DNA of 64,000 bases. It comes from Gemmatimonadota bacterium (GTDB lineage: Bacteria > Gemmatimonadota > Gemmatimonadetes > Gemmatimonadales > GWC2-71-9). The notes beneath the pieces were generated by a model that ran no database searches, was not told the origin of the DNA, and saw nothing but the letters and a program-made list of their open reading frames with translations. Below are positions 27,262 to 38,097 of the stretch, piece by piece. Positions within the stretch are counted from its first letter, which is position 1; each line of letters starts with the position of its first letter. A program made the position numbers and the translations under genes. The stretch covers positions 1 to 64,000 of the forward strand of contig JANYLJ010000011.1 in the NCBI GenBank assembly GCA_025357945.1. The letters run 5' to 3'.

Positions 27262-29202
27262 TTAGCCAGTTCGCTTCTTGAGTTCCTTCACTGCATCGGG
27301 CTGACTCAGGGCTGCAGCTTTCTGCAGCCATTCGAGCCCGGCGACGGTGTCCTTCGCCGTGCCACGACCCCTGAAATACATCTGGGACGCTTGCCATGCC
27401 GCGTCGCCTGATCCCTGGTCACCGGCCTTGCGGTACCACTGGAGCGCTTCGGCCTCGTTCTTGTCCAGGCCGCGGCCCTTGGCCAGGAACTCCGCCAGTT
27501 TCTGCTGAGAAATAACGTCGCCATGTTCGGCGCCGCGCCGGTACCAGAGGACGGCCTCAGTTTCATTCTTCTTGATGCCGGCGCCGTTCTCCAGACGGTA
27601 CGCGAGCGTCTGTTGCGCACGGAGCACACCGCCGGAGGCGGCTTCGCGCAACAACACGACCGATTCGGCGTCGTTGCGCGCTGCTCCACGACCAATCTCA
27701 AGCATATGCGACAGCAAAAACTGCGCTTCCGCGTCGTTTGACGCCGCGCGGCGATACCACTTGACCGCGTCGACCGGGTTCTCGGCCACGCCGTTGCCCT
27801 TGTCGTACATCAGGCCGAGCGTGCGCTCTGCGACCGCGCTGCCCGCTTCGGCCTCCTTGTTGCACGTGGCGGCGGCACCGGTCCAGTTCGCGGCGGCTGC
27901 GAGCCTCGCACAGGTTGCGGCACCACCGGGGGGCGGTGGCGTGACGGCGGTCGCGGCGCCGGCCTTCGGGGACGGAGCGGTTGTAGTCGGGGCCCTGGTG
28001 TTGCGGCCCTTGCTGCCGAGTGTCGACGCGCCATTCGGGGGAACCGCGGGGCCGGGTGCGACGACGATCGGCGTCACGCTGGACGAGGGTAGGGTCGCTG
28101 CGACCGGTGGTAGCGGTGCCGGAGGCGCCGGCTTGCTGCGCGAGCTCAGCCACCATCCCCCCGCCGCGAGTACCACGACAGCAGTGGCGATGACCTGATT
28201 GCGACGGACGTTCGACTTGTAGCCCATCGGTTTCGGCGTGACGGCCTGCGCGTCCGTGTCGAGCATCGCGGCGAATTCGGCCATGTCCGCGAAGCGCTCC
28301 CTCGGTTCCTTCGCCATGGCACGTTGGATCGCATTCGCGAGTCCGCCGGGAATGCCGGGCACCTTGGTCGCGATCGGCGTTGGCTCGGCGACCAGTTGCT
28401 GGTAGAGCACGGCGCGCGTCGAATCGCCTTCGAACGGCAACCCCCCAGCAAGCATCCGGTAGCCGACGACGGCGAGCGAGTACTGGTCACTGCGCGCGTC
28501 GATGCTCTTGTCACCGCACGCTTGTTCGGGACTCATGTACTGCGGCGTGCCGATGATGATCCCGGTGGTCGTGAGCGTCTGGCCGGGGTCGCCGTCGCCA
28601 GCGGCGCCAACCGCCTTGGAGATGCCGAAATCCATCAACAGCACCCGCTTGTCGCGGCCCTCGAGCATGATGTTTTCGGGCTTGATGTCGCGGTGAATCA
28701 CGCCGGCATCGTGCGCGGCGGCGAGTCCAAGCGCGGCTTCGCGCAGCACGCGACGCACCTCCGCTGGTTGCATGGCGCCTTCGCGATCGAGCACGGCGCG
28801 CAGGCTCTCACCCGCGATCAGCGGCATGATGATGTACGCGAGGCCTTCGGCTTCGCCGATGTCGAACACCGGCACGATGTGGGCGTTACGCAGGGTGGCG
28901 ATCGTTTCGGCTTCGCGGCGGAATCGCTGCAGCATCTCTGGTGAAAGGCCGAGATCGGGGCGCAGGACCTTGACGGCGAGGTCGCGCTTGAGCCGCAGGT
29001 CGCGCGCCCGGAACACCTCGGCGAATCCTCCGGCGCCGACGCGGTCCTGAAGCTCGTAGCTCGGACCGAGGGCGCGTTGCAGCTTGCGGATCAGGTCGGC
29101 GGGGCCGATCCCGGAGCGCATCGTGGTGGTGATCGCCTCGCCGGTTTCGCGGTTAAGACCTGCCGGCGTGGCAGTTCCGCAGACGTAGCAAAACGACGCC
29201 AT
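27262..29202 (-). CDS. Ser/Thr protein kinase with transmembrane segment and Sel1 repeats
   Basis: 646 residues from the only canonical start in frame. Kinase motifs: GAGGFAEV at 57-64, Lys78 in AVKVL, HRDIKPENIM at 170-179, DFG at 191-193, GTPQYMSPEQ at 218-227. A membrane helix at about 337-352 (VIATAVVVLAAGGWWL) separates the kinase from a Pro/Ala-rich linker and then four or five Sel1-type repeats (AERTLGLMYDKGNGVAENP, AVKWYRRAASNDAEAQFLL and similar). The frame continues upstream of the ATG into CPSC, which would complete a CxxC...CYVC zinc ribbon with the N-terminal CYVC; see findings. Such kinases relay envelope signals to cytosolic targets. Confidence 0.9.
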   Translation of the reverse strand: MASFCYVCGTATPAGLNRETGEAITTTMRSGIGPADLIRKLQRALGPSYELQDRVGAGGFAEVFRARDLRLKRDLAVKVLRPDLGLSPEMLQRFRREAETIATLRNAHIVPVFDIGEAEGLAYIIMPLIAGESLRAVLDREGAMQPAEVRRVLREAALGLAAAHDAGVIHRDIKPENIMLEGRDKRVLLMDFGISKAVGAAGDGDPGQTLTTTGIIIGTPQYMSPEQACGDKSIDARSDQYSLAVVGYRMLAGGLPFEGDSTRAVLYQQLVAEPTPIATKVPGIPGGLANAIQRAMAKEPRERFADMAEFAAMLDTDAQAVTPKPMGYKSNVRRNQVIATAVVVLAAGGWWLSSRSKPAPPAPLPPVAATLPSSSVTPIVVAPGPAVPPNGASTLGSKGRNTRAPTTTAPSPKAGAATAVTPPPPGGAATCARLAAAANWTGAAATCNKEAEAGSAVAERTLGLMYDKGNGVAENPVDAVKWYRRAASNDAEAQFLLSHMLEIGRGAARNDAESVVLLREAASGGVLRAQQTLAYRLENGAGIKKNETEAVLWYRRGAEHGDVISQQKLAEFLAKGRGLDKNEAEALQWYRKAGDQGSGDAAWQASQMYFRGRGTAKDTVAGLEWLQKAAALSQPDAVKELKKRTG

Positions 29203-29366: not shown

Positions 29367-30695
29367 TCACAGCTCCGTCGCCGCAGGCCCCGGCCGCGAA
29401 CTGAAAAACTCGGCCCGGTGGCGCCGCTCGGGAAAGCGCGCGATGTAGTCGTCCCGCCAGCGTGCCACGAACGCGCCGACCTCCGCTTCCCGTACCAGCG
29501 CCCAGACACTGCCGCCGAATCCGGCACCGAACGCCGACGCTGCCGCCGCGCCGAGTTCCGTCGCGCACCGTGCCAGGTGCACGGTTTCGGGAATCTGGTT
29601 GCCCAGGGTGCTTTCGGCGAGCGACTGCGATCGGGCGACGAGTTCGCGAAGACCCATCACGTCGCCTTGGCGCAAGCGGTGGGTCACCTCGGGGATGATC
29701 ACCTCCGTCTCTGCACTGAACTGCACGAGCCGGGCCCGCAGCGCGTCGGTGGCGCCCACGTCGCCGTCGATCATCGCCGTGAGGCGGTCGGTCGCGTCGG
29801 GCGCGCTGTGCAGCGCGGCGAAGAGCGACTGGTCGCCGCGACCGGTGTGACGACACCAGAGGGCCAGCAGCGACGCCACTTCCTGCGCCAAGGCATTGTA
29901 CCGGGCCTGCACGGCGCCGCCCTTCGCGGCGGGCACGCCCGACACCCCGATCACGAACTGCCACGCTGCGGGCAATGCGACCATCTCTTCCCGGGTGACC
30001 GGGATGAAGTGGTATTGCAACAGCTGTCCGGGCACGGCGCGAAGAATGGCGGTCTGATCCTCGCTGCCACCCTGCGTTCCGACGCCGCGGTCGGCCGGGA
30101 GCGTCGCGAAGGCTCGGCCGTTTTCCATCGCACCGAGATAGCCGGCCAGTGCGTCTTCGTCCGGGATGGCGGACCACGCCGGCAGGTCCCGGAGGTGGTT
30201 GATTGCGGCCAAGGGCAGGAAGCACGCGATCACCATCGCGCTCGATGACGAGAGTCCAGCGGCGGACGGTAACGACGAGCGGATCACCGCGTTCATCCCG
30301 GTGCGCGCAGCGGGGAAGTCGCGCGCGACGCGGCGCACAACGGTGATCGGATAGTCGGTCCAGTGCCCCGGTCGCGGCTCGGCGCCGGCTTGGAATGGGA
30401 TGGTGATGGCTGCGTTGGTCGATGCATCGACGATGCGGACCACCGCATCGTCCCGCGGGGTCGCGATCACGTGGAATCCTCGCTCTACCGCGCACAGGAG
30501 CGAGCGCCCGCCACCGTAGTCGGTATGCTTGCCGAGCACTTCGATGCGGCCAGGGACCCACCAAGCGCGCACCGCGTCCGACGGGCCGAATGCGGCCGCG
30601 TGTTGCGCCGCAACCTCCGTGAAGTGCCGGGTGGCGAGTGCCGCGGCCGTGTCCGCCAGGCCGATCGTCGCGACGCGTTCGCGCCACGATGTCAC
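29367..30695 (-). CDS. Divergent galactokinase-family (GHMP) sugar kinase
   Basis: 442 residues, longer than usual galactokinase. Motifs: GRIEVLGKHTDYGGG at about 49-63, SLPSAAGLSSSSAM (ATP loop), GGSEDQTAI (catalytic Asp region) and GAGFGGSVWAL. The first motif has Lys where galactokinases have Glu (G-E-H-T-D-Y), a residue that contacts the sugar, so the substrate may differ from galactose. It overlaps the nucleotidyltransferase gene by four bases and ends a five-gene operon with GH109, a symporter and an Asp-box protein. It probably makes a sugar-1-phosphate for that partner. Confidence 0.82.
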   Translation of the reverse strand: MTSWRERVATIGLADTAAALATRHFTEVAAQHAAAFGPSDAVRAWWVPGRIEVLGKHTDYGGGRSLLCAVERGFHVIATPRDDAVVRIVDASTNAAITIPFQAGAEPRPGHWTDYPITVVRRVARDFPAARTGMNAVIRSSLPSAAGLSSSSAMVIACFLPLAAINHLRDLPAWSAIPDEDALAGYLGAMENGRAFATLPADRGVGTQGGSEDQTAILRAVPGQLLQYHFIPVTREEMVALPAAWQFVIGVSGVPAAKGGAVQARYNALAQEVASLLALWCRHTGRGDQSLFAALHSAPDATDRLTAMIDGDVGATDALRARLVQFSAETEVIIPEVTHRLRQGDVMGLRELVARSQSLAESTLGNQIPETVHLARCATELGAAAASAFGAGFGGSVWALVREAEVGAFVARWRDDYIARFPERRHRAEFFSSRPGPAATEL

Positions 30696-31498
30696 GGTTG
30701 GATCTCCCGGTCTCCGAGACGACGGGCGACGTCGGCGATATCACCACGATTCGACAGGTCGAGCACGCCCGCGCGCAGCCGGACCGCATGGATGCGCATG
30801 CCGCGACTGATCGCGAGCGCCACCGCCAGCGGCAGTTCATATTCGCCGCGCGGCGACAGCGACACATCTCGGCATGCGGAAAAGATGTTCTGGTCGAAGC
30901 GCCAGATGTTCATGCTGATCCAGTTGCCCACGGCCGGTGCGTCACCCGGTTTCTCGACGATATCGGTGAGCGTATCGTCGGGCCGCAACGTCAGCACGGC
31001 GAAGGCGCCGATGCGTGCCGGTTCGATGTTGCTCTCGCGAATCAGTGCTGCGCGGTCGAACGCCACGCAGCCGGGTGCGCCCAATTCCACCAGGGCGCTG
31101 ATCGCCGTGACGGGATAGAGGTTGTCCGCGTTGAGCACCAGGATGTCGCGGTCTCCGATCCACGCCCGGGCCGTGAGCATGGCGTCGGCGGTTCCGCGCG
31201 GAGCGGGCTGCACCACGAAGGAGACCTCGACGCGCCGCGGCGGGCGCCGCTGGTAGTGTTCGCGAATCGCGTCGTGGTCGGGCCCGATCGCCAGGCACAC
31301 GTCGCGCACACCGCCGTCCGCCAGTGACGACAGGACGTGGTCGAGGAACGGCCGGCCGCGGCTGTCGGGGATCATCGCCTTCATTCCGGCTGCCGCGGCC
31401 GCGGCCTGTGCCAGATCGAGGGCCGTCCCGTCGGCATCGCGACGCATGCGACGGCCGAGTCCGGCGGCCAGGACGACTGCGGTGGTGCAGGCGATCAC
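30692..31498 (-). CDS. Sugar-1-phosphate nucleotidyltransferase
   Basis: 268 residues of the NTP_transferase family: VLAAGLGRRMR at about 9-19, then an insert of some 20 residues before the conserved lysine region MKAMIPDSRGRPFLDHVL, LVLNADNLYPV (metal-binding Asp), and VEKPGDAP. It would join a sugar-1-phosphate to a nucleotide, giving an NDP-sugar. Genes adjacent and overlapping (kinase downstream by four bases) suggest a kinase/pyrophosphorylase salvage pair, as in fucose salvage. Nucleotide and sugar are not predictable from the sequence alone. Confidence 0.82.
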   Translation of the reverse strand: MIACTTAVVLAAGLGRRMRRDADGTALDLAQAAAAAAGMKAMIPDSRGRPFLDHVLSSLADGGVRDVCLAIGPDHDAIREHYQRRPPRRVEVSFVVQPAPRGTADAMLTARAWIGDRDILVLNADNLYPVTAISALVELGAPGCVAFDRAALIRESNIEPARIGAFAVLTLRPDDTLTDIVEKPGDAPAVGNWISMNIWRFDQNIFSACRDVSLSPRGEYELPLAVALAISRGMRIHAVRLRAGVLDLSNRGDIADVARRLGDREIQP

Positions 31499-31507
31499 GC
31501 CGGCGCG

Positions 31508-34500
31508 CTACGGACGACCGTCGGGGATGCGCCCTGGGGTGGGCGGGGCGCCGAGTTTCTCGAGCTCCGCTTCAAGCGCGGGGATCTCGCTGAGCAGGAT
31601 CGGCTTGAGCTTGGCGTATTCCGGTGGAAACGCCGCGGCCGCGATGTCATACTGCTCGATGCTTGTCTTGCTCGGCGGTGATGTGGTGCCGCTCGGCGAC
31701 GCGTTGCGGGCGTGCGACTGGATCGACACCGGGACCTGTTCGCCGCGCGCGGAGTTCACGTCGTCGCCGCGCACCATGCGAAGGAAGTTGGCGAGGCGCT
31801 GGTCGATGCTGCGGGCCTGGTCGTGGAGTGCCGTCGCGGCCGATGGCATCTGGTTCAGGACGCGAATGATCGCGACGGTCTTGGTGCGCGCCGCGATCGC
31901 CGCGTCAACGGCCTGGCTGATCTGGCGCGCCAGCTTCGACTGCTTCGCGCGAAAATCGATGTTCGCCTGGCGATCGGCGAGTGTCACCGCAATGTCGGGA
32001 TCGGGCCACACCATCATGGCGACCGGCCTGGCCAACGGCGTGAAGACGCCCTTTTCCCGCCTGCCGATCGTTACGGTGTACTTCCCCGGCGGCACCGGCA
32101 CGCAGCCAGCGCACGGGTTGCTACCTGGGGCGGGGTCACCACCAGTTGCCCTGGCGCCGCCGCGCCCACCGCCGGTGGCAACCACCGCAGGACCAGCGTC
32201 GGCCGGTGTTTCCGTGGAACCGTTCAGGTCCCAGGTGAGGGCGTGGACGCCGCGAGACGCTGGCAGGCTGAGCACCCGCCAGATCGCGCCCTGGGCGTCG
32301 GCGATCGAGGCCGCCAGCGTGACCGGTTCGTCTTCCGCCTCAGCGACAAACTGTTCCGGCGTGGGGTACGTGATCGGTATCGATTGGCGTTCCGCATCGC
32401 GCTGTGCCTTCACCCGCCTGTCATGCAGCGACTCGAACATCGTCGCCTTGACGGAGTAGGTGATCGTGGCGCCGCTCGACGGATTGGGTCCCGTGTAGAG
32501 CGCTTCACCCTGGTTCCCCTTGCCAGTCCTGCCGCGACGGATCAGCGACACCGCATCCGGAATCGGGAAGACCGCGATGGTCTGGTCGAGGGCAGCCGGC
32601 GTGATGCTCCGCAACACGGAGTAGCCATCGATGACATAGATGCCGCGACCGAACGTGCCGAGCACCAGATCGTTGGTGCGGCGCTGGATGGCGAGGTCGC
32701 GCACCATGATCGTCGGCACGCCGGGGATCTTGATCCAGTGGGCGCCGCCGTCCTTCGACACGAACGCGCCGAATTCGGTGCCGCAAAAGAGCAGGTTCGC
32801 ATCGACGTGATCCTGCGCCAAGGCATACGCCCCACCGCGCTTCGGCAAGTCGCCCACGATCGATGTCCAATGGTGTCCGGCGTCGGCGCTCTTGAACAGG
32901 TAGGGCGTGAAGTCGCCGTTCTGGTGATTGTCGAACGCGACGAAGACGGTCTTCGCGTCGGTGGGCGACGCGATGATCCGCTGCACGTACGTGTTTGCCG
33001 GCACGCCCGGGATGGTCTCGATCTTCCGCCAGTTGGTGCCACCGTCTTCGCTGACCTGGAGCAGCCCGTCGTCCGTCCCGACGTAGAGCAGTCCCTCCTG
33101 CTGGTACGACTCGGCGATCGCGCTGACGTTGCTGTAGAACGCCGTCGATTGGTTTTTGGCGACCGCGTCGGGCCCCCAGACCTTGCCCATTACCGGCAGT
33201 GCGTTGCGATCGAGGCGGCGGGTCAAATCCTGACTGATCGCCCGCCAGCTATCGCCGCGGTCGTCGCTGCGATACAGCCGTTGCGACGCCGTGTACAGGC
33301 GGGTGTGCGCGTGCGGCGAGATGATGATCGGCGTGTCCCAGTTCCAGCGCGAGGGCGCTTCGCCGCGTGCTTCCTGTGGCTGCATCGGCACCGCGTCACC
33401 GGTCCGCGCGTCGTAGCGCACCATACCGCCGTTCTGGCTCTCGGCGTAGATCGTATTCGGGTCCTGCGGGTCGATGCGTGACACGAATCCGTCGCCGCCG
33501 GTGGTGACGAACCAGTCGGAATTCAGGATGCCTGTGTTGTTGCGAGTTGCCGTGGGCGCACAGACCGACGCATTGTCCTGCGTGCCGCCACAAACGTGGT
33601 AGAACGGTCGCGCGTCATCGACGTCGATGTCGTAGAACTGCCCCAGCGGGAGGTTGGCGAAATAGATCCAGGTCTTGCCACCGTCCCATGTTTGATAGAG
33701 CCCGCCATCGTTGCCGTTGAGATAGTGATCCGGATTCTTCGGGTCCACCCAGAGCGCGTGGTTGTCGACGTGCTTGGACTGCTCGCCGAGGCCGCGCCAT
33801 GTGGTCCCACCGTCGTCAGAAACCTGGCTGCCGACGTCCATCGAGTACAGCCGCTGCGGGTTGTGTGGATCAGCGACCAGGGTGGCATAGTACATCGCCT
33901 GCGCACTGTAGGGACTGCGCTTCTCCCAGCTGATACCGCCATCATTGGAGCGGAAGATGCCGCCTTCGCCATTCGCCGCCTCGATGGTGGCGTAGACGAT
34001 GTCCGGATTGGCGGGCGAAATGGCAAGCCCGATGCGGCCCAGCTGCGTGGTCGGCATGCCGGTGGTGACCTTGCGCCAGGTCTTGCCGCCGTCGGTGGAA
34101 CGATGGAGCGCGCTCTCGGGGCCGCCGTCGATCAGCGTCCAGACATGGCGCCGCCGCTGGTAGGTCGCGGCGAGGAGCAGATCGGGATCGCGTGGATCGA
34201 GCACGACGTCGGTGACACCGGTGCGCTCGCTGGTGGCGAGCAAATTACTCCACGTGCGTCCGCCGTCGGTGGTCTTGAAGAGCCCGCGATCACCGCCGTC
34301 CGACCAGAGCGGCCCCTGCGCGGCGACGTAGACCACATCGCTGTTGCGTGGGTCGATCACGATTCTGGCGATGTGTTCCGATCGCTCGAGTCCCATCCGC
34401 TTCCAGGTCCGGCCGGCATCGTCGGAGCGGTAGACACCGTCACCGTATGCCACGCTGCGCTGGGAGTTGTTTTCGCCGGTGCCGACCCAGACCGTCGATG

Positions 34501-34909
34501 GGTTGTTCGGGTCGAGCGTGAGGACGCCGATCGAGAACGATCCCTGCTTGTCAAATATCGGGGTCCAGATGGCGCCGCCGTTGTCGGTCTTCCAGACGCC
34601 GCCCGACGCGGCGGTGGCGTAGATCACGGCCGGATTTCGCGGATCGACTGCCACACTCGAAATGCGTCCGCTGATCATCGCGGGGCCGATCAGGCGTGGC
34701 TGCAGCACCGCCGCGACGGCGCCCGGCAGGCCGCGCTTCGTTGAATCGTCCGGTGTCCGCGTCGTGTCGCCGCGAGTGGTGTCGGCACGCGCCAGCGTGC
34801 TCGAATCGATCCGCCGTGCGGTATCTCGTCGCGCAGGGTTCTGTGCCGCGAGAGGCGTGGTGCCGAGCGCGACGACCACCACGGCGCTGACCATGCGAGG
34901 GATCCGCAT
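31508..34909 (-). CDS. Secreted Asp-box (BNR/sortilin-like) propeller protein
   Basis: 1133 residues, signal peptide ending PLAAQ. At least 11 Asp-box motifs are visible, of the form S-x-D-x-G-x-x-W: [87 protein letters not shown] and SKDGGAHW. They build one or two large propellers like those of sortilins and sialidase-like glycosidases. No catalytic residues of a known GH family can be named. A C-terminal helical region (about 1000-1133) carries no motif I recognise. One base separates its start from the symporter stop, and the nucleotidyltransferase starts nine bases after its end. Confidence 0.8.
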
Positions 34910-34910
34910 G

Positions 34911-36671
34911 TTATGCCCGCCACATTTTCGGCACGATCCGGATCAGGCCGATCGCCCCTGCGCCACCGGCGGCCAGCCAGAAGATCGCGATGCTGGTGCG
35001 GCCGTAGAGCAGGGCACCGGTGCCGAAGAGCGCGCCGTACACGGTGAACAGCCCACAGAGCCATGCGAGGAACGCCTGCGGCAGCGAATCGGGTGACGTC
35101 GCCACGCCGGCCTCGGCGCGAATGGCACGCCACCCGGGACCGGCGGGGCGCACCTTGCGGTAGAACGCGAGCAACGTGGCGTGATCCGTTGCCGGCGAGA
35201 GAAACGCCGTGGTCACCCATACCGCGGTGGTCGCGGCGATCGTCCAGAGCAGCGAAACGTGTGCTTCGACGACCATGCCGTGCTTCGCGGCGATGAAGAA
35301 CCCGATCGCGACGGCGAATGAGGTGGTCATCGCCGCGATCTCGCACCAGGCGTTGATGCGCCACCAGAACCAGCGCAGCAGGTAGATCAGGCCGGTGCCG
35401 GCGCCGATCGACAGGATCAGCCCGAACGCCTGCTGCGCGTTGTCGAGCTCGAAGGTCAGCAAGGCGGCGAACAGCATCAAGGCAGCGGTGGTGAGGCGAC
35501 CCATAAGCACGTAGTGTCGTTCGCTGGCGTTCGGGCGGACGAAGCGACGCCAGAAGTCGTGCACCAGGTACGACGAGCCCCAGTTGAGGTGCGTCATGAT
35601 CGTTGAGCGGTAGGCCGCTTCCATCGCGCCGAGCATCAAGCCGAGGAAACCGTGCGGCAGGAACTTGAGCATGGCGGGATACGCCATGTCGTGTCCGACC
35701 AGGTGCGGGTCGACGTTCGGGAAGGCAGTTCGAATCGAGTCGAGCGTCGGGAAGATGATGATCGACGCGAGTGCCACGACGATCCATGGCCACGAGCGCA
35801 AGGCGTAGTGGGCAACGTTGAAGAGGAGCGTTCCGCCGAGGGCGTCGGCCTCGGAGCGCGCGGCGAGCATGCGCTGGGCGATGTAACTGCCGCCTCCCGG
35901 TTCAGCGCCCGGGTACCACACCGACCACCACTGCACCGTGAGCGGGATGATGAAGAGCGTGAGTGTCATCCGCCAGTCGTTGAAGTCCGGCAGGAGGTTG
36001 AGCGTCTTGGCGGGGAGGTGGGCGACGAGTCCGTGAAGCCCGCCGACGGCCGGCTGCTTCAGCGCGAAGTACGCGACCGCAAAGGCGCCAGTCATCGCGA
36101 CGCCGAACTGGATGAAGTCGATCACCAGCACGCCCCAGAGCCCGGCGATCGTGGCGAAGCCCACATTCAGGAGGGCGCAGATGAGGAGCGTCTGCCACAT
36201 CGGCCAGCCGAGGACAATATTCGCGATCTTGGCCGCGGCGAGGTTCACGGTGGCCATGATGACGCAGTTGAAGACCAGCCCGAGGTAGATCGAGCGGAAC
36301 CCGCGCACCCAGCTCGCTGCGCGCCCACTGTAGCGGATTTCGTAGAACTCGAGATCGGTGAGGACGCCGCTGCGGCGCCACAACTTGGCGAAGAAGAAGA
36401 CCGTCGCCATGCCGGTGAGCAGGAACGCCCACCATTGCCAATTGCTCGACACGCCACCGGTACGGACGAAGGAGGTGACGAGGTTTGGCGTGTCGGTGCT
36501 GAAGGTGGTGGCGACCATCGATACGCCAATCAGCCACCACGGCGCGGCTCGGCCGGCACCGAAGAATTCCGTCGAGTTCGCACTTCCCTTGCGCAGGTAG
36601 AACAGCGCCGGAATGAAGCAGATGACGATCGATGCGAGGACGATGCTCCAGTCGAGTGCGTTCGGATTCAT
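34911..36671 (-). CDS. Sodium:solute symporter family transporter
   Basis: A 586-residue SSS-family membrane protein with roughly 13-14 helices, including the SSS signature regions [19 protein letters not shown] (about 33-51) and [13 protein letters not shown]. It probably imports a sugar or sugar acid with Na+. The start overlaps the stop of the GH109-like gene by four bases, so uptake of the glycosidase product is the simple reading. The C-terminal part (about 505-586) is a longer tail with two more helices. Confidence 0.85.
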
Positions 36672-38032
36672 GAGCGGGACCGCACCGTCTGCCAGCCGCC
36701 GCGAGTGAAGTCGGGAAACTTGACCGGTACGCTGCCATGCTTCACCGAGACTTCACTCAGCGGCCACGGCGCGCTCCACGCCGCGGCATCGTAGACATCG
36801 ATATCCGGAGGCAGGCCCTCCTGCATGCATCGCATCAGCCGTGCGATCATGATGAAGTCCATGCCACCCTCGCCGCCGGTTTTGCGGGCACGCTCGCCGA
36901 ATTCCTTCCATAGTGGGTGCGCATGTTCGGCCTGGTACTCGTCAATCGGCTTGAATGCCTCGCCGTCCTTCTGGCCATCGAGGTAGATGCGCGCCGGGTA
37001 ATCCTTGAAGACGCCCTTCGTGCCCCGGATCGAATTGAGGCGGTCATACGGTGTCGGGGTGGTCACCGCATGCTGCAACAGGATGGTCTTGCCGCGCACC
37101 GTCTTCACCAGGGACGAGTTGATGTCGCCCTCGACGTAGGTCTCGCGCCACTTGGGCGAATCCTTGGGCACGTGGGCGTCGCGCCAGAGCGAGAGGCCGC
37201 GCTCGCCGGTGGACATCGATACGAGGTAGTCGAAGCGATCGCCGCCGTGGATATCGAGATACCACGAGACGGGGCCGAGTCCGTGCGTCGGGTAGAAATT
37301 GCCCTGGCGATTGGTGTGCGGAAACCGCCGCCACAGGCCTTCGTCCCGGTCCTCGAAGAGGATCGATCGCAGGTCATGGATGTACGCGGCCTCGCCGTAC
37401 TGCACTTCGCCAAACATTCCCTTCTTCACCATCGTGTTGACCATCATCTCGTTGAAATCGTAGCAACAGTTCTCCATGATGAGACAATGGCGGCGCGTCC
37501 GTTCGGACGCGTCGACCAGCGCCCAGCATTCGTCCAGTGATGTCGCGGCGGGCACCTCGGTCCCGGCGTGCTTGCCCGCCTTCAGCGCGGCGAGGCAGAC
37601 CGGCGTGTGCCACGGCCATGGCGTCGCGGTGTAGACGAAATCGATGTCGTCACGGGTAACAAGGTGCTCGAAGTCACGCTCGCCGGCAGTATACAGCGCG
37701 GGCATCGGTTGTCCCGCCTGCACCACCCGATCAGCGGCGCGTTGTGCCTTGGCGGGAACAATGTCGCAGAGCGCCGTAACGCGCACGCCGTCGACCGAGA
37801 GGAACTCGCCGAGGACCGAGCTCCCCCGGAGACCGGTCCCGACGATCGCGACCCGCACCGACTCATGGCGCTCGAACGGCACGCCCATCATGGTCGCCGC
37901 CACCGATTGCGCCGGGTCCTCGCCGCGTCGCTCCTCGGCGTGGTCTGGCCACGCCATGAACGCCCCGGCGGTAGCGGCGCCCTTGATCAGGTCACGACGC
38001 GAGAGCAGCTCGTCGATCGGTCGGTCTGGCAT
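36668..38032 (-). CDS. GH109-like glycosidase, probable alpha-N-acetylgalactosaminidase
   Basis: 454 residues from the ATG at 38032 (frame open to 38143). A twin-arginine signal is present (SRRDLIKGAATAGAF), so export occurs in folded form with bound cofactor. A Gfo/Idh/MocA NAD-binding fold follows (VRVAIVGTGLRGSS). Stretches such as YTATPWPWHTPVC, SERTRRHCLIMENCCYD and GEAAYIHDLRS match GH109, the NAD-dependent retaining alpha-N-acetylgalactosaminidases. Length (usual 440-460) agrees. It is the first gene of a minus-strand operon with symporter, propeller protein, nucleotidyltransferase and kinase. It would release GalNAc, or a related sugar, from glycoconjugates in the periplasm. Confidence 0.85.
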   Translation of the reverse strand: MPDRPIDELLSRRDLIKGAATAGAFMAWPDHAEERRGEDPAQSVAATMMGVPFERHESVRVAIVGTGLRGSSVLGEFLSVDGVRVTALCDIVPAKAQRAADRVVQAGQPMPALYTAGERDFEHLVTRDDIDFVYTATPWPWHTPVCLAALKAGKHAGTEVPAATSLDECWALVDASERTRRHCLIMENCCYDFNEMMVNTMVKKGMFGEVQYGEAAYIHDLRSILFEDRDEGLWRRFPHTNRQGNFYPTHGLGPVSWYLDIHGGDRFDYLVSMSTGERGLSLWRDAHVPKDSPKWRETYVEGDINSSLVKTVRGKTILLQHAVTTPTPYDRLNSIRGTKGVFKDYPARIYLDGQKDGEAFKPIDEYQAEHAHPLWKEFGERARKTGGEGGMDFIMIARLMRCMQEGLPPDIDVYDAAAWSAPWPLSEVSVKHGSVPVKFPDFTRGGWQTVRSRS

Positions 38033-38097
38033 GATGGAATTCCGGTTGCCATGGAGGGGTGAGGTGGACGCCCGCTTAGCTTGATTATCGCCGACCC

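Follow-up and report, generated by a model that had tools for sequence, protein, structure and literature searches.

Salvage of sugars by a kinase together with a pyrophosphorylase is known from several systems. In humans, the galactokinase-fold kinase GALK2 makes GalNAc-1-phosphate, which a UDP-HexNAc pyrophosphorylase then turns into UDP-GalNAc. Bacteria possess a 1-kinase plus nucleotidyltransferase bypass in AmgK-MurU, where an APH-family kinase acts on MurNAc in recycling of the cell's own wall. Plants salvage free sugars from glycan turnover in two steps, using eukaryotic sugar-1-kinases and a broad UDP-sugar pyrophosphorylase that are not arranged in an operon (PMC3659416). Bacteroides FKP unites a GHMP fucokinase with a GDP-fucose pyrophosphorylase, the nucleotidyltransferase domain coming first, but it uses L-fucose and GTP and forms a unit without transporter or GH109 (PMC11982464). 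The nearest described locus is the B. theta PUL BT4240-50, which pairs an exported GH109 α-GalNAcase with a GalNAc-specific kinase and has an MFS transporter gene alongside (PMC11992087). Its kinase is of the APH family (NahK-like), it includes SusC/D and a mucin protease, and its catabolic growth on GalNAc is proven; a nucleotidyltransferase is not named in the text of that paper (0 occurrences).

Analysis of a window of 64,000 nucleotides from the genome of a soil-type Gemmatimonadota bacterium (3.0 Mb, 75 contigs, 99.8% complete) revealed a locus that is a variant of this known kinase-plus-pyrophosphorylase salvage. We read its core as a four-gene operon that activates an N-acetylhexosamine directly, GalNAc being the most likely sugar, and put the probability of this reading at roughly 0.55. 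An exported, NAD-dependent glycosidase of family GH109 would free the sugar, its predicted substrate, from glycoconjugates, and a Na+-coupled symporter of the SSS family would bring the same putative substrate into the cell. A GHMP kinase, recognizable by fold and catalytic motifs, would then phosphorylate C1 of the presumed sugar, and a nucleotidyltransferase (NTPT), likewise assigned by fold and motifs, would convert the sugar-1-phosphate into an NDP-sugar, probably UDP-HexNAc. The product could feed cell-surface or cell-wall synthesis or, via epimerisation, the general UDP-HexNAc pool. Compared with BT4240-50, the window kinase is of the GHMP type and no SusC/D is found among the five ORFs of the locus. 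The GHMP kinase plus pyrophosphorylase combination is shared with FKP and the kinase plus nucleotidyltransferase logic with AmgK-MurU, whereas in comparison with human GALK2 the window kinase carries Lys for Glu and falls in a clade separate from GALK2-like bacterial kinases, and the accompanying NTPT belongs to the RmlA/GalU type. Literature searches of open-licence papers returned no description of this set; the original prediction, too, had known no precedent for its exact five genes. If correct, this reading would establish a direct route from amino sugar to nucleotide sugar in several environmental bacterial phyla, parallel to eukaryotic GalNAc salvage; it would also provide a natural one-pot enzyme pair for NDP-sugar production and assign a widespread kinase family that is now scored just as a weak galactokinase.

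Five ORFs occupy positions 29367-38032, all on the minus strand (Table 1). The junctions read off the sequence are -4 (kinase/NTPT), +9 (NTPT/Asp-box), +1 (Asp-box/SSS) and -4 (SSS/GH109), so the short overlaps and gaps described by the original prediction are present. The 65-bp gap upstream of the GH109 gene is probably the promoter region of the operon. A Ser/Thr protein kinase gene with an apparently repeat-rich C-terminus (window 27262-29202) lies directly downstream of the operon and is kept in the genus.

Table 1. Features of the locus and the evidence for each (window coordinates)
Feature	Position	Strand	Evidence
Galactokinase-type GHMP kinase, 442 aa	29367-30695	-	Pfam galactokinase galactose-binding signature; GHMP N/C (PF00288, PF08544), both above cut-off
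Sugar-1-phosphate nucleotidyltransferase (NTPT), 268 aa	30692-31498	-	Pfam NTP_transferase (PF00483), 59.8 bits (cut-off 21.2)
1133-aa protein of the Asp-box / Sortilin-Vps10 type with a secretory-like N-terminus	31508-34909	-	Pfam Sortilin-Vps10, 115.8 bits; BNR
SSS sodium:solute symporter, 586 aa	34911-36671	-	Pfam SSF (PF00474), 85.3 bits (cut-off 22.8)
GH109-type Gfo/Idh/MocA glycosidase, 454 aa	36668-38032	-	Pfam Rossmann domain (PF01408), 48.4 bits, and Glyco_hydro_109_C (PF21252), 160.6 bits, both above cut-off
Lys56 codon of kinase GKHTDY	30528-30530	-	Position of Glu in galactokinase GEHTDY
Glu388 codon (GAG) of GH109 GGEGG loop	36869-36871	-	Codon read from sequence
65-bp gap between GH109 and divergent APC-type permease gene (38098, + strand)	38033-38097	.	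ORF coordinates and sequence

To define the conserved part of the locus, a sample of 149 genomes of the class was searched; 35 contained a strong NTPT match, and the regions around 36 such loci were compared. Across these 36 loci, which come from several families within the class, the genes for GH109, SSS, NTPT and kinase mostly share one strand and one order; some members are absent or displaced. The Asp-box gene was found near the kinase only in the window and in L062/L098, L063 and L099, where it sits between the SSS and NTPT genes; it was absent from L064, one of the four members of the same genus. The window's genome carries a single kinase, a single GH109 and a single SSS of the operon's type, and five further long Asp-box paralogs elsewhere. 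Because the Asp-box gene is limited to part of one genus and has these paralogs, the conserved unit comprises just the four genes for GH109, SSS, NTPT and kinase. The Asp-box gene appears to be a later, genus-restricted insertion from a multi-copy family, presumably dispensable for the core reaction. The claim that five genes act together thus stood for the four core genes, on the strength of conserved order and gene fusions, and failed for the fifth; a core role for the Asp-box protein in binding or processing the glycan was rejected because of its distribution and its paralogs. Upstream of GH109, many Gemmatimonas-type loci (L065-L074, L134, L143, L144, L159, L162) have two more genes, one for a cupin-like protein of 125 aa and one for a further sugar nucleotidyltransferase of ~330-360 aa.

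Scanning genome-wide with the kinase alignment as seed identified 456 relatives, of which the best 80 were analyzed. The kinase relatives belong to six phyla (Gemmatimonadota, Planctomycetota, Acidobacteriota, Fidelibacterota, Actinomycetota and Bacteroidota). Although these best 80 of 456 loci were chosen by the kinase alone, 68 had an NTPT gene on the kinase's strand no more than 1.5 kb away, including 36 of the 44 outside Gemmatimonadota; at several loci with no NTPT nearby the kinase sits at a contig end. GH109 was near the kinase in just 3 of those 44 loci (L103, L108, L163), and the pair may therefore serve other sugars outside Gemmatimonadota. SSS and NTPT form a single open frame in L079, L080/L113 (one contig), L112 (where the SSS portion is partial), L121 and L155, with similar linkers of ~17 residues, and NTPT and kinase form a single frame in one case, L095, where the domains follow each other in the order seen in FKP. 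Fusions of both kinds favour a scheme in which import, 1-phosphorylation and nucleotide activation would be consecutive steps. Of the release, import, 1-phosphorylation and activation originally predicted for a GalNAc-like sugar, direct passage from kinase to NTPT is thus the best reading, with GalNAc the most likely sugar. More tentatively, the GKH(T/V)DY kinases could constitute a family of their own with their own sugar substrate, and the SSS-NTPT fusion lineage could physically couple uptake to activation, the transporter carrying its NTPT. That the five genes are merely adjacent and share no pathway would suit the Asp-box gene, but for the core genes it is contradicted by an order and two kinds of fusion kept over several families and phyla, and as an account of the locus it is hardly credible. 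Where GH109 is not adjacent, a Tat-like protein of ~700 residues was seen beside the unit (L105, 1982-4054; L112, 3248-5344; L113; L121; L155; L147, 9438-11489). This family, which may fill a second glycosidase slot, had no match in Pfam, NCBIfam or PHROG; around a DDGW motif its profile weakly resembled two alpha-galactosidases (E = 0.025 and 0.041, not significant alone).

The best PDB relative of the window GH109 was 6t2b, the Akkermansia GH109 solved with GalNAc (E = 5.4e-101), followed by 2ixa (E = 4.1e-68). The protein, the sole GH109 in the genome, has a twin-arginine-like N-terminus (SRRDLIKGAA), and its Tyr217 and His250, aligned to Tyr226 and His259 of AmGH109A, are conserved. The catalytic His was not found: the loop reads GGEGG, with Glu388 replacing His404, the residue whose role in AmGH109A has been described (PMC10755693). 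The GAG codon is two bases from the nearest His codons, CAC and CAT, and the nearest relatives, L062 and L064, keep His in a GGHGG loop. Glu was present in 2 of the 45 GH109 proteins of the compared loci, those of the window and L097, which lie in separate clades; because the clade neighbours of L097 keep His, the change seems to have arisen twice. Since Glu replaces the loop His, the predicted α-GalNAcase activity of the window GH109 is uncertain. The SSS protein had vSGLT as its closest PDB relative, was a single match in its own genome and showed 53-85% identity across 18 loci. Reading of the alignment indicated that the galactose contacts of vSGLT, which we take to be Q69, E88, S91, N260 and K294, are not kept (Q69T, E88W, S91F, N260V and K294H, corresponding to T61, W80, F83, V251 and H288 of SSS), which counts against the preferred reading.

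The structure model of the kinase (pLDDT 94) had GALK1, P. furiosus GalK and GALK2 as its nearest PDB folds. The catalytic motifs are kept, namely the GLSSSSA loop and D213, and G147, S149-S151 and D213 were invariant in 24 aligned sequences. The reading as a plain galactokinase was rejected on account of Lys56 and of a score of 80 bits against a cut-off of 226.65 for the galactokinase equivalog TIGR00131; among the equivalog models, no cut-off named the substrate of either kinase or NTPT. The GALK2-type motifs GEHIDY and GGGMDQ are absent from the window kinase, which has GKHTDY and GGSEDQ. Lys56 was invariant in the 24 aligned kinases; E. coli GalK has Glu at this position. Lys was present in each of the 112 family members that could be scored, in a set biased to this residue by the inclusion of GKH[TV]DY among the peptide patterns of the scan; among the kinases of the class sample, which came from a whole-protein search, every one covering the motif likewise had Lys. 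The corresponding Glu of galactokinases (Glu43) is presumably a sugar contact, to O6, and going by the motif the substrate may be a uronate or another sugar. The same route could act on a sugar with an anionic group at C6, such as a uronic acid; Lys56 would bind the negative group and the product would be UDP-GalA or UDP-GlcA, as for the uronate salvage kinases of plants and fish. We consider this unlikely: the Lys of all 112 kinases against the Glu of galactokinases speaks for it, but the Glu43-O6 contact is a presumed one, and the recurrent amino-sugar neighbours (NagB-PIG-L, GH20, ROK) and the GALK2-like kinase in equivalent loci point away from it. In Algoriphagus marincola, loci for galacturonate/glucuronate do include a GH109 gene (PMC5507952), and a glucuronokinase and putative pyrophosphorylase are known in zebrafish (PMC3938481). 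The original prediction had missed this Lys-for-Glu signature, as well as the Glu-for-His change in GH109 and the wide spread of the kinase-NTPT pair.

The structure model of the NTPT (pLDDT 92) was nearest to the folds of UDP-glucose pyrophosphorylase and RmlA in the PDB. Its GxGxR...K signature is intact, with G13, G15, R17, K40 and D125 invariant in 26 sequences. Against the named equivalogs GlmU, GalU, RmlA, AglF, MurU and HddC the NTPT scored far below every cut-off, and a plasmid search returned general relatives alone (<60% identity, the best mostly AglF-like). The nucleotidyltransferase of FKP presumably belongs to a different family. A weak similarity to MurU (25 bits), together with the identical two-step logic, would fit a GHMP-type analogue of AmgK-MurU that activates MurNAc or GlcNAc for wall recycling; with the NTPT nearer to the AglF and RmlA models, and with GH109, a Na+ symporter and GH20/GH29 neighbours indicating glycans from outside, this is very unlikely.

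The preferred substrate of the core operon, a HexNAc, is suggested by the surroundings of related genes. In Phycisphaerae, a NagB-PIG-L fusion (glucosamine-6-P deaminase/deacetylase) adjoins the kinase-NTPT pair, with ROK regulators in some loci, and GH20 and GH29 genes recur near other pair loci. Elsewhere in the class, other families combine GH109 and SSS homologs with a different kinase, ~30% identical to that of the window, whose best PDB match was human GalNAc kinase (E = 2e-46 and 5e-52) and which has GALK2-like motifs. A kinase match of this weaker kind was detected in 61 genomes, and in 40 of them a GH109 or SSS homolog lay no more than 8 kb away; two loci with GALK2-like kinases, L204 and L215, have an NTPT as well, and a GH20 is found at L215 in addition. 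NagB-PIG-L occurs in 88 of the 149 genomes, too common to inform, so adjacency alone was used: it lies near GH109 or the kinase in L202, L203 and L211, and adjoins SSS homologs in L209, L210, L217 and G087:C181. These GALK2-like kinases in equivalent loci and the recurrent NagB-PIG-L and GH20 neighbours make GalNAc the most likely candidate, with sugar, nucleotide and end fate all predicted from sequence. A NagB-like match at C49 was discounted as 6-phosphogluconolactonase-like, adjoining a 6-phosphogluconate-dehydrogenase-like gene.

The same neighbours bear on a catabolic fate, in which the activated sugar would be epimerised to UDP-GlcNAc, returned to GlcNAc-1-P and passed via NagB-PIG-L into glycolysis, as in the bifidobacterial GNB/LNB pathway. 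NagB-PIG-L is encoded in the window's genome and, in relatives, adjoins SSS or kinase genes, and phosphomutase and epimerase genes neighbour the pair in other phyla. The original contrast of salvage rather than catabolism was therefore overstated. We nevertheless judge this fate improbable, as NagB-PIG-L lies outside the operon, no NagA or GalE match above the curated cut-off was found in the genome, and the kinase-NTPT fusion favours net activation. Direct activation of a HexNAc remains the preferred reading. A second version of the locus was observed in other families of the class, in which GH109 adjoins a GALK2-like kinase, often with SSS near (L204, L205, L206, L214, L215, L219). In two loci a type I phosphodiesterase / nucleotide pyrophosphatase gene lies between GH109 and the GALK2-like kinase (L202:10225-11139 and L214:1270-2196).
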